A stretch of DNA of 64,000 nt from an uncultured Desulfobulbus sp. (lineage in GTDB: Bacteria; Desulfobacterota; Desulfobulbia; Desulfobulbales; Desulfobulbaceae). This document shows positions 59,006-64,000 of this stretch, one piece after another. How positions within the stretch are numbered: the first letter of the stretch is position 1; each line of letters starts with the position of its first letter. The position numbers and the translations under genes are program-made. Below the pieces are notes generated by a model, which had not been told where the DNA came from, did no database searches, and saw only the letters and a list, made by a program, of their open reading frames with translations. The DNA is taken from contig NZ_OY762276.1 in NCBI RefSeq assembly GCF_963665445.1, positions 4,954,601 to 5,018,600 of the forward strand, given 5' to 3'.

Positions 59006-60232
59006 TTACTTGGTGAACTCGATCAGGGTATCGCAATAGGCCTCAACCGCCTTTTGGATAGCGGCCTTGTCCTCATCCGTGGGCGCGCCCTGCCATTCGT
59101 AGGATCCGAGTTTATCCCAGCCGGACTTTTCTGTCTTGGCTTCAAAATCCTTCTGTGCCCCGCCAGACCAACCAAATGAGCCGAAGCGGAACACCTTTTT
59201 GTTGGTGACCTTTTTCACCTGCAACTCTTCGATGACATGCGCCATTGGGGGGAACATCTTGTATTCGTAGGTGGGCATGCCGAAGATCAGGCCGGCCGAT
59301 TTCCAGGCCGAGGCCAGGATGTAGCCGATCTCGTCGCCGGGCACCTGAAAGACATGCACCGGAATTTCACGTTTGCGCAGGGTCTCGATCACGATATTGA
59401 GCACCTGCTTGGTGTTGCCGTACATGGAGCTCCAGACCACGGTCACCTCGCGTTCCGCGGGTCCCTTGGCATACTCGGCATAACGCTTGTAGTGCTCGAT
59501 GATGACTGCGGGGTTGTTGCGCCAGATGATACCGTGCGAGGGGCAGATCACCTTCACATCCAGTCCGCCGAGTTTTTCCAGACCCTTGAGGACAAAGGTC
59601 GAGAAGGTGGCCACGATGTTGGCGTAGTAGCGCAGGGCCTCTTCCTCGAAGAACTGGTGCTTTTCCGAGGAGATCTGGTCGTCAAAGATGGCGTTTTCGT
59701 CGATGCTGCCGTAGGAGCCGAAGGCGTCGCAGGAAAAGAGGATGCCGCGCTTGCGCTCGTAGGTCATCATGGTTTCCGGCCAATGGATGTTGGGGGTGTC
59801 GAAGAACTGCAGTTCGTAGTCACCCACCTCCAAGATCATGCCATCGGTGATGGCAATGGCACGCTCGGCCGGGACCTCGGCAAAGGCGTTCAGCAGCGGA
59901 ACCGCCTTCTTGGAGCAGTAGATCACCGCCTTGCTGTTTTTCTTGCAGAATTCGCGCAACCAGCCCGAGTGATCCGGTTCCATGTGATTGACGACGAGGA
60001 TGTCGATATCCTCGATATTCAGGGTCACCCCGCTCATCTGGTTGGTGAACTCCTGGGGAAAGTTGAAGATATCCTGGGTCAGATCGATCAGGATGTTTTT
60101 CTCCGATTTGATCAGATAGCCGTTAATGGAAATACCGTGGGGAATCGGCCAGATACCCTCAAAAAGATAGTTTTTGTCTTCGATGTTGGCGGAAAGACGA
60201 TAGATGTCGTCTATTACCTGTTGAATGTGCAT
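59006..60232 (-). CDS. fprA: Flavodiiron protein (rubredoxin:oxygen oxidoreductase type)
   Basis: This 408-residue protein reduces O2 (and in some families NO) with electrons from rubredoxin. The N-terminal metallo-beta-lactamase domain has the diiron ligands HMEPDH (His83, Glu85, Asp87, His88), a His in NIHWPE, an Asp in SCDAFG and a His in CPSHGI. The C-terminal flavodoxin domain (from about residue 260) has the FMN loop VVWSSMYGNTKQ. The ATG at 60232, with GGAG about 9 nt upstream, is preferred over a TTG five codons earlier. It supports O2 tolerance together with the hemerythrin chemoreceptor. A rubredoxin gene is not in the window. Confidence 0.94.
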   Translation of the reverse strand: MHIQQVIDDIYRLSANIEDKNYLFEGIWPIPHGISINGYLIKSEKNILIDLTQDIFNFPQEFTNQMSGVTLNIEDIDILVVNHMEPDHSGWLREFCKKNSKAVIYCSKKAVPLLNAFAEVPAERAIAITDGMILEVGDYELQFFDTPNIHWPETMMTYERKRGILFSCDAFGSYGSIDENAIFDDQISSEKHQFFEEEALRYYANIVATFSTFVLKGLEKLGGLDVKVICPSHGIIWRNNPAVIIEHYKRYAEYAKGPAEREVTVVWSSMYGNTKQVLNIVIETLRKREIPVHVFQVPGDEIGYILASAWKSAGLIFGMPTYEYKMFPPMAHVIEELQVKKVTNKKVFRFGSFGWSGGAQKDFEAKTEKSGWDKLGSYEWQGAPTDEDKAAIQKAVEAYCDTLIEFTK

Positions 60233-60423
60233 GGGTTGCTGCTCCAAAACAAAAATTAAACCATGAAAGAATTGGAAAAATTCTTACTATTGCCAGAATA
60301 GAGCGTAACATAAGCGCGTTACTGGAAAAATGCCAGACGCAAAATGACCCGAAGATACCTTTTCCAAGGGGCATTTTTTCCAGACGCTGCAGCAGGGACG
60401 CTGGCACTCTCCCTGAGAAAGCC

Positions 60424-60888
60424 TTACCCCAGCAGCGGAAGAGTTCGCGGCTCGTCGCAACGAATACCGATCGCATCTCCGGGGCACCCTTCCAGATCAA
60501 CGCCTTCCAGAAGGTTGAGTCGCGGGCTGGCCTTGCAGTTCACCCCGATCCGCTCCAGTTCATCGATATTGAATCCCACCAGACGTACGCTGCCGATTTC
60601 CATCAGCGGCCTCCGGATCAGCAGCGGGTCGGCAAGCATCGCGTCCAGGGCCTGGTCTTCGTCCATGCTGTGGATGTCCACCTCCCCGGATTTGACCTTG
60701 GGCGCCAAGGTGTTGAACCACTGCGGGACCGGCAGGGCACCGAAAAAGGAACGCAGTTCTTCTCGATCAAAGGGAAATTCAAGCAGATTCTCGGTGATCA
60801 ACCGGTGGCCGCTTGAAATAAGAATGGCTTTTTGGCGCGCGTTGCCGGTGCAATGGGGCTTTTCAAAAAAGCGGATGGTGGCTTTCAT
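60424..60888 (-). CDS. ArsC-like nitrogenase-associated protein
   Basis: This 154-residue thioredoxin-fold protein belongs to the ArsC/Spx superfamily and matches the nitrogenase-associated subgroup (TIGR01616-like): RFFEKPHCTGNARQKAIL near the N-terminus, then FFGALPVPQWFN and DPLLIRRPLMEIG. Only one active-site-like cysteine (Cys13) is present at the ArsC position; the following Thr-Gly and Asn-Ala-Arg are not an arsenate reductase pattern, so arsenate reduction is unlikely. GGAGG lies about 8 nt before the ATG. Its start overlaps the stop of the ABC ATPase gene by 4 bp (ATGA). It ends a four-gene operon. Its function is not known in any organism I can name. Confidence 0.75.
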   Translation of the reverse strand: MKATIRFFEKPHCTGNARQKAILISSGHRLITENLLEFPFDREELRSFFGALPVPQWFNTLAPKVKSGEVDIHSMDEDQALDAMLADPLLIRRPLMEIGSVRLVGFNIDELERIGVNCKASPRLNLLEGVDLEGCPGDAIGIRCDEPRTLPLLG

Positions 60889-61910
60889 GGCGTCGTCCTC
60901 CGTACTTCCTCAAGGTGGATGGGCGCGATCCGCTCTCCGTGACGCAGCTGGTGGCGGATGGCAGCATGGATATCGTCAAGTATTTCCAAATCCGTCAAAA
61001 TAGCCGCCTCTTCCGTGGTTCGTTCGTGCAGCGAGTGCATCGCGCCGTGGCGCATGCACAGTCGACGTGGTGCCAGCAGGGCCAGCAGGGGGTCATGGGT
61101 CGCGGAGAGGACAATTTTTTCCTGGGACAGGAGCAGGGAAAAGGCGGCACGCCGGTCAATGCCGGCATTTTCGATTTCGTCAATCAGCACAATGGGTGAA
61201 CGGCAGACCAGGGCGGTGTCCGCAACCATCAGGGCACGGGTCTGACCGCCGCTGAGGCTGGTCAGCGGGGTGTGGCCGCCAAAGGGTTCCCCGGAGAGCT
61301 CGTTGGCCGCTTCGATGGTGTCCTGGACAAGCGCGTTGCTCATACCCCGGCTTTCCACATGCAGCGCAAGCAGTTCTTCAACCGTTGCATCGAGCACAAA
61401 GGACATGGTCTGGGAGAGTTGGGCAATGAGCTGGTCGCCGCCGGTGGAAAAACGTTTGTCGGCGGCGTTTTGGCCATCCACGAGAATGTGTCGACCACTG
61501 GGCGTGTCACCGGCGGCCAGCCATTCGATATCGGCAAGCAATCGGCTCTTGCCGGAGCCGGTTGGGCCGACAATGGCCAGCAGGTCGCCACGCTTCAGGA
61601 GAATACGGTTGACGGCTTCGGCATTGCCCGACTTGTCCTGCCCGGCAATGATCTCTATCTGATTGAGGCTGTTGCTGCTACCGAGCAGGGCCTGCAGTTC
61701 GCTGATGCGCTCGATGAGGCCGGCAAGAAAGGATTCTGCCGATTGCTGGTGCAGGTCGGCCCACTGCTCCAATTTACTGCCGAGGGTCGCTTTTTCGTCG
61801 GGGTCGAATTCGATCCCAACCTCAAGCAGGGCCGATTCAAGCAGGGGATACTCGACAAGCAGGGTGGCGAGGCTGGTTTGCGCCAATATTTCGGGAGTCA
61901 GGTCGGGCAC
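60885..61910 (-). CDS. ABC-type ATPase with N-terminal DUF1858-like segment, no permease
   Basis: This 341-residue protein starts at GTG with GAGGA 5 nt upstream. Residues about 1-65 (TPEILAQTSLATLLVEYP, with LLEVGIEFD) resemble DUF1858. The ABC ATPase domain follows: Walker A GPTGSGKS (residues 115-122), signature LSGGQ (219-223), Walker B VLIDE (241-245) and the H-loop ATHDP. No transmembrane segment is seen and no permease gene is adjacent. This is more like a soluble ATPase acting on a protein or cofactor than a classical importer subunit. It lies 8 bp after the GTPase gene. Confidence 0.8.
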   Translation of the reverse strand: MPDLTPEILAQTSLATLLVEYPLLESALLEVGIEFDPDEKATLGSKLEQWADLHQQSAESFLAGLIERISELQALLGSSNSLNQIEIIAGQDKSGNAEAVNRILLKRGDLLAIVGPTGSGKSRLLADIEWLAAGDTPSGRHILVDGQNAADKRFSTGGDQLIAQLSQTMSFVLDATVEELLALHVESRGMSNALVQDTIEAANELSGEPFGGHTPLTSLSGGQTRALMVADTALVCRSPIVLIDEIENAGIDRRAAFSLLLSQEKIVLSATHDPLLALLAPRRLCMRHGAMHSLHERTTEEAAILTDLEILDDIHAAIRHQLRHGERIAPIHLEEVRRTTP

Positions 61911-61918
61911 GATTTCCT

Positions 61919-62608
61919 CTAATCGATATTGAGTTTGCGGAATTGGCCGATCTGGTAATCCGTGCCGACCCGTGTTTCGCCCAGGCAGTAGGAGCAGAGC
62001 GCCGCCGGCATGGGAAAGCGCAGCCGCAGGTTGTCCAGCGTCCCGTTCATGGGTGGAGCTTTAAGAAAGATCTGCGCCAGGGCATGGGAACCCTGGCCCG
62101 AACGGCCGTTGACCTGAATGATGCGCGCCCGCGGGGCCACGCTCTGTACCCGGTAGGCAAAGACCTCGCGCTCGGCCTGGGAGACGATGTCGCCTTTGGT
62201 GATCACCACCACATCGGCCAACTTGAGCATGGGGCCGATCTTTTTCGGGGTGTGGAGTCCGCTGACGTTGTCGAGCACGCAGACCGCCAGCGATCCCTTG
62301 ATATGGGGCGAGCAGCGGTTGCACAGCCCGGCGCTTTCGATCACGGTCATGCTCAGCTCCCGCTTGCCCGACCACTCCAGGACCCGGTCGATATTGGACA
62401 CGAAATAGTGGTCCGGGCAGAGCACGCCGGAAAGCCCCTTCTGCACCGGAATGCCGGCCTGATGGTAAATGGCGTCGTCGTCGGTGACCAGGCAGTCGAA
62501 CTTGATCACCCCGGCCTTGACGCCTTCGGCCATAACCGCCTCAAAGGTCTTGAGCAGGACCGAGGTCTTGCCGCTTGAAGGCGGGCCGGCCACGGTGATC
62601 AAACGCAT
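61919..62608 (-). CDS. HypB/UreG-like GTPase with two cysteine motifs
   Basis: This 229-residue protein belongs to the SIMIBI GTPases that supply metal to enzymes. The P-loop GPPSSGKTS is at residues 8-16 and the guanine-specificity motif TKGD at 137-140. Two metal-site-like motifs are present: Cys96-Asn-Arg-Cys99 followed by His102 (ESAGLCNRCSPH), and Cys203-Ser-Tyr-Cys206 near the C-terminus. The position of the first resembles the nickel site in HypB. It overlaps the binding-protein gene by 10 bp and is followed 8 bp later by the ATPase gene. Nickel, iron or a cofactor are all possible clients. Confidence 0.78.
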   Translation of the reverse strand: MRLITVAGPPSSGKTSVLLKTFEAVMAEGVKAGVIKFDCLVTDDDAIYHQAGIPVQKGLSGVLCPDHYFVSNIDRVLEWSGKRELSMTVIESAGLCNRCSPHIKGSLAVCVLDNVSGLHTPKKIGPMLKLADVVVITKGDIVSQAEREVFAYRVQSVAPRARIIQVNGRSGQGSHALAQIFLKAPPMNGTLDNLRLRFPMPAALCSYCLGETRVGTDYQIGQFRKLNID

Positions 62609-63828
62609 GTCGCCTCTCCGGTGCGCCGATATTCGCTGGTGAAGGTCTCGCCGATATCCCGTTTGACCTGCTCAAGGTCATGGCGGTAGATGAAATCCCA
62701 GCCGATCCAAAACAGTTTCTTGCCTTCGGGCAGGTTGGGGACCACCTCGGGATGGGGCGAGGGGAAGAAGTTGTCGCTGCAGTGCTGATGCAAGGACCGA
62801 CTCATGAGAAAATCGATAATCGGGGAGAGTTCCTCGCGTTTGCTCTTCTTCACCAGCAACTGTACCGGGCTGATAAAGGCGCCTTCCTCGGGAAAGATGA
62901 TCTCGATCCGCTCTTTGGCCTTGATTCTGTGGGCAAAGAACCAGGGCAGGATGAACAGCGGCGGACAGTTGTCGGCGTGGGTGTCGATCATCTTCACCAT
63001 CTGCGAGGGGTGCATGCCGTTGCAGACGTTGGCCGCCAGCTTGGGGATGGCCTCGCTGCCGAAGAGGCGGAAAAAGGGGACAAGAACGCCTGAGCAGAAA
63101 AAGCTGTCCTGGCCGCGCATGATGATGGATTTATTGTACCGGCTCTCCAGGAGATCGGCCCAACGCTCGGGCGGTGCCAGATCCGGGCGGATATCCTTGA
63201 CATGGACGCAGACCAGGGCGTTGCCGCAAAACATGGTGAGGTGCTGGTGCGGATCGGCAAAGCCGACATCCGCCATATGCGGGGCCATGGGACCGTTGAC
63301 GCTGACGAAGTGTCCGGGTTCGATGAATTTCTCCAGGAAGCGATGATGATAAAAGGCGTTGATGTCCGAGCTGAGAATCAGATCGGGCAACTCGTCGACC
63401 GATTCCACGGAGTCGATATAGGGGTAATAGGAGAGTTCGTGGTTGACGTTTCCCTCGGCCAGGTAGGCAAGGGGTGTGTCGTTTTTGGCCAGTTCCTCGG
63501 CAAAGCTCTGCAGGGCGTTGTTGAGCGAAACCTTGAGTCCGCAGGGGAGGAGTGCCAGCAGGGTGGGCTGGGCTCCGTGGATATCGGCTGCCGAGCTCGG
63601 AGCAGGTTCACTGGTTGCCGCGAGGGTGGTGCGGCAGCGCTGGAGAAAGGTTTCGCCATCGATGCCCTTGAACTTGAGCAGGGTGCGCAGCTTGAGAAAG
63701 GGGCCAAGTTTTTCCCGGACCTGGGGATTGTCGAAGTCGTGAAAACCAAAACCCTGGAAGACCGGCAGGGTCTGCGGGTAGGCATCCAAACATTCCTTGA
63801 CTGATAGATCGAGATGGAGCGGCTGCAT
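62599..63828 (-). CDS. Binding-protein-like (type 2 PBP) protein with DUF1858 domain, no signal peptide
   Basis: This 409-residue protein starts at ATG 63828 with AGGA 8 nt upstream; the reading frame extends 49 codons further but without a family-like N-terminus. Residues 3-60 resemble DUF1858 (LDLSVKECLDAYPQTLPVF), and the rest looks like an iron/spermidine-type periplasmic binding fold (NGPMAPHMADVGFADPHQH, SIIMRGQDSFFCSG). There is no signal peptide or lipobox, so it should stay in the cytoplasm, unusual for such a fold. Cysteines lie in GQDSFFCSG, FCGNALVC and NVCNGMH. It is the first gene of the four-gene operon, overlapping the GTPase gene by 10 bp. Confidence 0.75.
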   Translation of the reverse strand: MQPLHLDLSVKECLDAYPQTLPVFQGFGFHDFDNPQVREKLGPFLKLRTLLKFKGIDGETFLQRCRTTLAATSEPAPSSAADIHGAQPTLLALLPCGLKVSLNNALQSFAEELAKNDTPLAYLAEGNVNHELSYYPYIDSVESVDELPDLILSSDINAFYHHRFLEKFIEPGHFVSVNGPMAPHMADVGFADPHQHLTMFCGNALVCVHVKDIRPDLAPPERWADLLESRYNKSIIMRGQDSFFCSGVLVPFFRLFGSEAIPKLAANVCNGMHPSQMVKMIDTHADNCPPLFILPWFFAHRIKAKERIEIIFPEEGAFISPVQLLVKKSKREELSPIIDFLMSRSLHQHCSDNFFPSPHPEVVPNLPEGKKLFWIGWDFIYRHDLEQVKRDIGETFTSEYRRTGEATCV

Positions 63829-63980: not shown

Positions 63981-64000
63981 GGGAAAGCGCGCAAGAAAAA

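Follow-up and report, generated by a model that had tools for sequence, protein, structure and literature searches.

A three-gene unit of transporter-type parts and a G3E-type GTPase beside nifENB in Desulfobulbus, a candidate cytoplasmic metal-handling machine

What work is left for the binding protein and the ATPase of an importer when no permease accompanies them and a metal-type GTPase is encoded between them? This question is raised by one end of a 64 000-nucleotide stretch of DNA (the whole of which is called the window here) from a sulfate reducer, an uncultured Desulfobulbus sp. The window spans bases 4954601-5018600 of a genome of 5.08 Mb in a single contig. Four reverse-strand genes are located there: gene A (62599-63828), for a homologue of solute-binding proteins, gene B (61919-62608), for a GTPase, gene C (60885-61910), for an ATP-binding cassette (ABC) ATPase, and gene D (60424-60888), for a nitrogenase-associated protein. 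A first-pass annotation had described them as a four-gene unit without a permease, and had proposed a soluble machine for metallocofactor assembly. All four open reading frames are indeed present with the spacing it gave (an overlap of 10 bp between A and B, a gap of 8 bp between B and C, and a second overlap, of 4 bp, between C and D), its family calls agree with the Pfam and NCBIfam matches, and there is neither a permease among the four genes nor a signal-peptide-like N-terminus on A. Its two Cys motifs in the GTPase turn out to be three. Here we report that A, B and C (the trio) are conserved as a gene unit, are cytoplasmic by sequence, have intact nucleoside triphosphatase (NTPase) motifs, and are enriched beside nif and metal-import genes. 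The trio probably constitutes a soluble, cytoplasmic metal-handling NTPase machine assembled from transporter-type parts.

Conservation of the A-B-C trio

The B sequence was used as a query (E 1e-20) against 395 Desulfobacterota genomes, 296 genomes of the phylum to which a Sunxiuqinia metagenome-assembled genome belongs (Bacteroidota in the GTDB sense), and a plasmid collection. Matches were obtained in 20 of the 395 and 19 of the 296 genomes, and the plasmid collection contributed a single record, a molecule of Fusobacterium vincentii 2.1 Mb in length (W01); a broad scan of genome contigs using A as the query gave five loci. The resulting set contains 48 B loci, including one fragment (L108) and leaving out L105, a duplicate of L020. 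C is present in 47 of them and A in 44, with 45 copies in all (two in L052). The four loci without A (L065, L066, L067 and L107, the last a short contig) have the order C-B, three others (L062, L063 and L064) have A following C, and in the remaining 41 A precedes B. The trio members found share one strand in every locus, and 18 of the 48 loci, from several families, show an A-B overlap of 1-13 bp. In a tree of 34 B proteins, the window B belongs to a Desulfobulbus clade that has full support, whereas the branching order of the wider group around this clade is not resolved.

The cluster is thus kept as a unit across genomes, as the first-pass annotation had required, but the conserved unit is A-B-C rather than all four genes. 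The six Desulfobulbus loci are the only ones in which D adjoins the trio; outside these it lies elsewhere in the genome or is absent, and the four-gene set is therefore rejected as a conserved system. NifO-like genes, the class to which D belongs, were detected (E 1e-10) in 19 of 42 trio genomes versus eight of 38 nif-bearing genomes without the trio. These counts mark D as a local addition, and NifO as a weak marker of the trio only.

Some loci contain altered or additional forms. At L106:8535-9605 (genome G489), a single frame of 356 amino acids combines B and C; in it, B residues 1-170 are joined to C from the signature motif onward and the Walker A motif of C is missing; this is probably a decayed trio. 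Fragments of A and B lie between a modA and a nifB at L108:8859-9515 (G638), and are probably a trio relic at a nif/mod locus. In trios of a nif-unlinked form, C is followed directly by a gene for a small Cys-rich protein (L049:10717-10899 and L053:8082-8324), and the L049 protein has zinc-finger matches, all below cut-off. Genome G249 holds both this nif-unlinked form (C27) and a trio linked to nifH and TonB genes (C31).

Sequence features of the four proteins

Protein A (409 amino acids) has a DUF1858 domain (48.6 bits; cut-off 32.2) followed by an SBP_bac_6 domain (1.2e-59), and its Cys96, in the sequence LLPCGLKV, is kept in at least 90% of rows. Maximal N-terminal hydropathy was calculated for 28 of the 45 A proteins, with some protein starts chosen by ourselves; all 28 have values of 2.07 or less and none is signal-peptide-like, compared with 2.33-3.2 in seven of eight exported controls (the eighth, ModA of L062, has 0.11, probably owing to an over-long start). 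By this measure A is not the exported solute-binding protein of an ABC importer. Its nearest solved relatives (E 1e-6 to 1e-2) are aminoethylphosphonate-type, pyridoxal-phosphate-binding and several Fe(III)-binding proteins, with polyamine-binding proteins as weaker matches, and so mixed a set does not single out one ligand for A. Like the Fe(III)- and 2-aminoethylphosphonate-binding SBP_bac_6 proteins (FbpA, 4r6y), A has this domain over its whole length, and its matches to the solved structures are weak but consistent. It differs from them in having no signal peptide or permease, in the DUF1858 domain in front, and in having a Cys early in the binding domain.

Protein B (229 amino acids) passes the broad Pfam model for cobW/HypB/UreG (46 bits; cut-off 20.7). 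An alignment of 34 rows, selected from the 48 loci, shows that G8, G13, K14 and T15 of the G1 P-loop (GxxxxGK[ST]) are invariant, and this pattern is recognized in 47 of the 48 B proteins; the G4 motif TKxD, of the [NT]KxD type that specifies guanine, is present in all 48. Equally invariant in the 34 rows are three Cys-containing motifs, C64-P-D-H67, C96-x-x-C99 and C205-x-x-C208. In a profile alignment the Cys-Pro of CPDH falls on the Cys-Pro of the nickel-binding CPH motif of UreG, with the His one residue later in B. The G3 position is occupied by Glu instead of Asp (E91, 34 of 34 rows), which is the defining feature of G3E GTPases in the portion of PMC9164220 available to us. The same source defines COG0523 proteins by CxCC, and this CobW motif is absent from both the window B and the B consensus, even though the broad Pfam cobW model is passed.

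No NCBIfam cut-off is reached by B, including those for HypB (TIGR00073; 48.6 versus 121.2 bits), UreG (TIGR00101; 26.5 versus 204.2 bits) and MeaB, and B is thus a G3E-type GTPase outside these three subfamilies. UreG and HypB are nevertheless its closest known counterparts, sharing with it the G1, G3-Glu and G4 motifs and the aligned Cys-Pro, and the solved full-length proteins nearest to B belong to this group (5xkt, 4hi0, 2wsm, 2hf8 and 4lps). B differs from them by lying far below their curated cut-offs, by its two extra CxxC pairs, and by its partners, a solute-binding protein and an ABC ATPase rather than UreEFH or HypA. Repeated matches to recA in the PDB were weak and due to the P-loop, and were discarded.

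Protein C (341 amino acids, GTG start) is a soluble ABC ATPase with no membrane domain matched (Pfam ABC_tran 46.1 bits; cut-off 25). Its catalytic motifs are intact. All 47 C proteins have LSGGQ and the Walker B motif with the catalytic Glu (DE[IV]EN), whereas by inspection of the sequences Walker A is present in 46 (the missing row is the chimera L106) and the THD H-loop in 46 (the missing row, L092, is cut by the contig end); narrower patterns had caught only 39 for Walker A and seven for the H-loop. No membrane partner such as an ABC importer would need is encoded with C among the window genes. A DUF1858 copy suspected by eye at the N-terminus of C gave an hhalign probability of 29.5, and matches of C to a defence library were weak and confined to the P-loop region. 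SufC is likewise a soluble ABC ATPase that serves metallocofactor assembly, according to the part of PMC9164220 consulted. Neither SufC/SufBCD nor HesA is matched by the trio (for C, among the best 25 of 127 NCBIfam matches).

Protein D (154 amino acids) has the ArsC fold and passes the cut-off of the nitrogenase-associated family TIGR01616, that of NifO/DraB (141.7 bits; cut-off 109). It differs from these proteins in being joined to A-B-C. No specific function is given for NifO/DraB in the portion of PMC5249018 at hand.

Nitrogen-fixation and metal genes around the trio

The next 20 kb beyond the window edge (stretch L009) contain nifB (L009:691-2001), nifN (L009:1998-3383) and nifE (L009:3414-4772), named by sequence and located directly upstream of A on the same strand, with the end of nifB only 90 bp beyond the edge; in the searches NifE and NifN of this genome appear as lower-scoring matches of the nifD model. 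A second nif group, at 3.68 Mb of the same genome, comprises nifH, two nifI-type genes, nifD and nifK (all named by eye, nifD excepted). The order nifE-nifN-nifB-A-B-C-D is also found in the other five Desulfobulbus loci examined (L016, L017, which starts within nifE, L018, L019 and L024). In D. elongatus the operon is flanked by nifENB and nifH-nifI-nifD on one contig, and in L018 nifI-type genes, again named by eye, lie a few kilobases from the trio. A perfect sigma-54 -24/-12 match precedes nifE in our genome, L016 and L024 and not in L018 or L019; chance would give 0.07 such matches over the 20 kb that make up L009, and one was present in 15 of 200 shuffled sequences. About 104 bp upstream of this match, a NifA-type motif, TGT-N10-ACA, is present in our genome and L016 and not in L024.

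The link to nitrogen fixation, which the first-pass annotation had drawn from D, is supported by this neighbourhood and by the enrichment of nif genes in genomes with B. Of the 395 Desulfobacterota genomes, 99 match the nifD family (E 1e-120), namely 16 of the 20 B-positive genomes versus 83 of the 375 others (Fisher p 1.8e-7 by species); counted by genus, the values are 11 of 14 B-positive genera versus 69 of 245 overall (p 8e-5). On the Bacteroidota side, all 19 B-positive genomes match nifD versus 47 of 277 others (p 4e-14). Within the genus Desulfobulbus, A is found in five of 23 genomes, several of them incomplete, and all five are among the 11 that have a nifD-family match (chance 462/33649 = 0.014); the other six nif-bearing members have no match to A.

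The neighbourhoods of the 48 trio loci also point to metals. Pfam models identify TonB receptors, FecCD permeases, Peripla_BP_2 proteins, a methyltransferase, an Oxidored_molyb domain protein and DUF364/DUF4213 proteins of 'putative heavy-metal chelation'. An Nramp gene lies directly upstream of A in L055, L056, L057 and L059, where the genes facing the trio include some identified by eye as HypD- and HypE-like, ZnuA and ABC-3 genes adjoin the trio of Fusobacterium vincentii, and genes for Rrf2, a NifS-like protein (Aminotran_5) and an iron-sulfur (Fe-S) domain protein adjoin B-C in L065-L067; these neighbours were assigned by Pfam on one example each and by similarity in the others. Metal-import (TonB/FecCD, Mod, Nramp or Znu), nif or Fe-S genes lie near 36 of the 48 loci, compared with two of 40 control stretches. 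The raw count was 37; L066 was removed, as it had rested on a weak NifV-like match, whose product is probably a different acyltransferase. With NifV and TonB receptors left out, the numbers are 34 of 48 versus one of 40, and for nif genes alone 13 of 48 versus none of 40. The controls are 18-kb stretches from twelve trio-bearing genomes, searched with the same seeds at positions set at round numbers. This contrast is descriptive, because the seeds were chosen from the trio loci, the control positions were set by hand, and the loci are not independent. Since relatives of the trio so often stand beside metal-uptake genes, its probable function is to supply enzymes within the cell with metal.

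Downstream of D in the window is a gene for an FprA-type flavodiiron protein (59006-60247, reverse strand), which occupies the same place in L017, L018 and L024. It is possibly linked to the operon, and we do not count it in the trio; protection of the nif locus from oxygen or nitric oxide is a possible role.

Two observations made in passing concern nitrogenase-related genes. At L050 (genome G202), a short NifB-like gene (L050:5306-6160; 284 amino acids), which scores 338.5 bits (cut-off 343.65) and matches the 441-position profile at 6-279 only, is followed by NifV (522.5 bits; cut-off 462.9) and then by the trio with a TonB/FecCD cluster. In addition, NifD-like proteins of about 480 amino acids are encoded with exactly one in-frame TGA in L113 (G353), L114 (G251), L115 (G425) and L116 (G294), and also in G406 and G204. 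The TGA in L113-L116 aligns with the Cys of GC(A/S)FAG, which is kept in the TGA-free homologues L117 and L118 and which we take to be a P-cluster ligand position of NifD. Selenocysteine as a cluster ligand of a nitrogenase-like protein is a possible reading of this codon.

A possible role in metal delivery and its alternatives

How could such a set of proteins work? In the scheme we propose, A would capture a metal ion, an oxyanion or a metal complex in its two-lobed cleft within the cytoplasm, and the binding and hydrolysis of ATP by C would open A, much as importer ATPases act via a permease. B would then accept the metal at a GTP-gated dimer site made up of its CPDH and CxxC motifs, in the way that UreG and HypB handle nickel, and would pass it to a client. 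The likeliest client here would be the NifB/NifEN line and the likeliest metal molybdenum (Mo), so that the trio would act in the role taken elsewhere by NifQ, with the NifO-like D as a redox or allocation partner. That A-B-C is a metal-handling machine serving nitrogenase cofactor assembly in Desulfobulbus is the best full explanation we can offer, and we would put its chances at about even. The assembly machine of the first-pass annotation is retained here in part: the soluble, permease-free character, the metal-type GTPase and the nif link all agree with it, whereas many trios lie in metal-uptake loci (TonB/FecCD, Nramp and Znu) and some trio genomes have no nifD match.

The case for Mo starts from NifQ. 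Only one of 80 genomes searched was matched by the NifQ model (Pfam PF04891), and the Desulfobulbus genome of the window (G000) was not. A ModA gene falls in the fetched stretch of six of the 48 loci (seven at a looser threshold). In Azotobacter vinelandii, nifO lies in the order nifB-fdxN-nifO-nifQ, and NifO may direct Mo between nitrogenase and nitrate reductase, as far as the part of PMC5249018 at hand goes. The trio stands about where nifQ does in that order, and would share with NifQ both this place and the role of Mo donor. NifQ differs in that its model does not match the trio, and we use the comparison as a working analogy only. A parallel is provided by Paenibacillus, in which HesA, an unrelated protein, is a factor of a nif cluster without nifQ and is needed for nitrogen fixation at low molybdate (PMC6361004, in the portion available). 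With NifQ absent and NifO linked to Mo in print, we tentatively favour Mo over iron, by a small margin, as the metal of the Desulfobulbus copy, and consider each of the two rather doubtful.

Several observations weigh against nitrogenase, and against Mo in particular. NifQ is also absent from nif-bearing genomes without the trio, and ModA is present in 75 of the 80 genomes, trio-bearing or not, and so discriminates nothing. The Fusobacterium vincentii record contains the trio and matches neither ModA nor MoaA (nifD was not searched there), which rules out Mo as the ligand of the whole family; G033, G087 and G131 are without ModA and with MoaA. Iron fits more of the trio contexts than Mo does (Nramp, FecCD, Rrf2 and NifS). 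Four B-positive Desulfobacterota (G087, G131, G240 and G423) have no nifD match, the first three of which contain a divergent C-B form without A, and G033, an 85% complete genome of the same family as Desulfobulbus, has A-B-C and likewise lacks a nifD match. The B-positive Bacteroidota are probably for the most part one nif-rich, phylogenetically clumped group, in which we infer most genomes to be green sulfur bacteria; the co-occurrence there is not independent, and its p value of 4e-14 overstates the case. No recognized metal gene is found near 12 of the 48 loci, three of which are on short contigs (L020, L092 and L107; L092 has a TonB-receptor fragment that passes the looser threshold only). 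Between nifB and A, a hairpin with a U-tract is clear in four of the six Desulfobulbus loci (our genome, L016, L017 and L024) and unclear in L018 and L019. In our genome this terminator-like element lies 3' of nifB on the same reverse strand at about L009:606-656, just past the window edge, with the U-tract ending at window positions 63996-64000; an earlier pattern scan of the gap had given no terminator, and the hairpin (in the L009:597-690 region) was recognized afterwards. No sigma-54-like site with up to two mismatches was found before A, and no Rfam element in the nifB-A gap. Read-through from nifENB into A is weakened by the hairpin and the missing site, and we therefore call A-D nif-adjacent genes, which may be transcribed apart from nifENB.

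One alternative is that the trio is a general cytoplasmic iron-delivery machine, which in Desulfobulbus would supply iron, rather than Mo, for the NifB cofactor and for Fe-S clusters. This reading gains from the contexts without Mo genes (the four loci with Nramp upstream of A, ZnuA/ABC-3 in Fusobacterium, and Rrf2, NifS-like and Fe-S genes in L065-L067), from FecCD together with TonB receptors in many loci, and from the Fe(III)-binding proteins among the nearest solved structures of A. However, Fe-S assembly is universal, whereas B occurs in a small share of genomes (20 of 395 and 19 of 296) and is nif-enriched; moreover, Mod genes adjoin several trios and D is NifO-like. We consider general iron delivery a serious competitor, if a rather doubtful one. 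The same TonB and FecCD genes could instead belong to metallophore uptake, in which a receptor and permease import a chelate and A-B-C strips off the metal and passes it on, the importer being elsewhere or lost in Desulfobulbus. The trio does lie within clusters of TonB, FecCD, FecE, methyltransferase and Peripla_BP_2 genes in many Bacteroidota-side loci and in L050, L051 and L062, with the L052 cluster short of the methyltransferase only. No such importer is present in the fetched stretch of the six Desulfobulbus loci, the seven loci of family f54 (L055-L061) and several others, and we consider a metallophore role unlikely.

A cytoplasmic binding protein without a permease would also be a plausible sensor, and the nifI-type genes close to the trio of L018 could fit a switch in which A reads the level of a cytoplasmic ligand while B and C alter nif or transporter activity by protein contacts. 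Two NTPases with full catalytic motifs and the six invariant Cys of B exceed the needs of a sensor, however, and we judge this improbable. Least probable is a decayed or ordinary ABC importer with its permease encoded elsewhere. The superfamilies of A and C are those of importers, and FecCD permeases do lie near 17 of the 48 trios; in the loci inspected, however, these have a separate solute-binding protein and ATPase of their own. In addition, none of the 28 A proteins tested (of 45) is signal-peptide-like, 18 of the 48 loci, of several families, have A and B overlapping by 1-13 bp, and the GTPase is highly conserved. A permease or a signal peptide in close homologues had been named in the first-pass annotation as evidence that would overturn its proposal; no signal peptide is seen in the A proteins tested, and in the loci inspected the permeases nearby have partners of their own. 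An ordinary transporter is rejected on the N-terminus of A, the lack of a permease and the coupling of genes A and B.

Is a cytoplasmic metal-handling trio of this kind new? The proteins A, B and C match broad Pfam domains only and reach no NCBIfam cut-off (for C, among the best 25 of 127 matches), and no description of the trio was found in the literature, as judged by titles and abstract openings among the matches listed. NTPase metallochaperones are reviewed in the part of PMC9164220 consulted, where SufC figures as the ABC-type ATPase of an Fe-S assembly system and no counterpart of the trio is shown. The parts are known; a cytoplasmic unit that combines them seems not to have been described in the literature searched. 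It is conceivable, though we would not count on it, that the trio represents a new class of intracellular metal-loading system, in which a membrane-freed solute-binding protein and an ABC ATPase are coupled to a six-Cys G3E GTPase, supplying Mo to the iron-molybdenum cofactor (FeMo-co) in anaerobic diazotrophs without NifQ and other metals in other clades.

To our knowledge, the delivery of Mo to FeMo-co in nitrogen fixers without NifQ is not settled for most lineages, and Mo is scarce in sulfidic, anaerobic settings. As a soluble gene set beside nifENB, the trio is a direct candidate for a Mo-delivery route in sulfidic anaerobes. Genes of this type are easily mistaken for transporter components; if the proposed role is true, a solute-binding protein and an ABC ATPase working together with a metal GTPase in the cell interior would combine very common parts in a new way.

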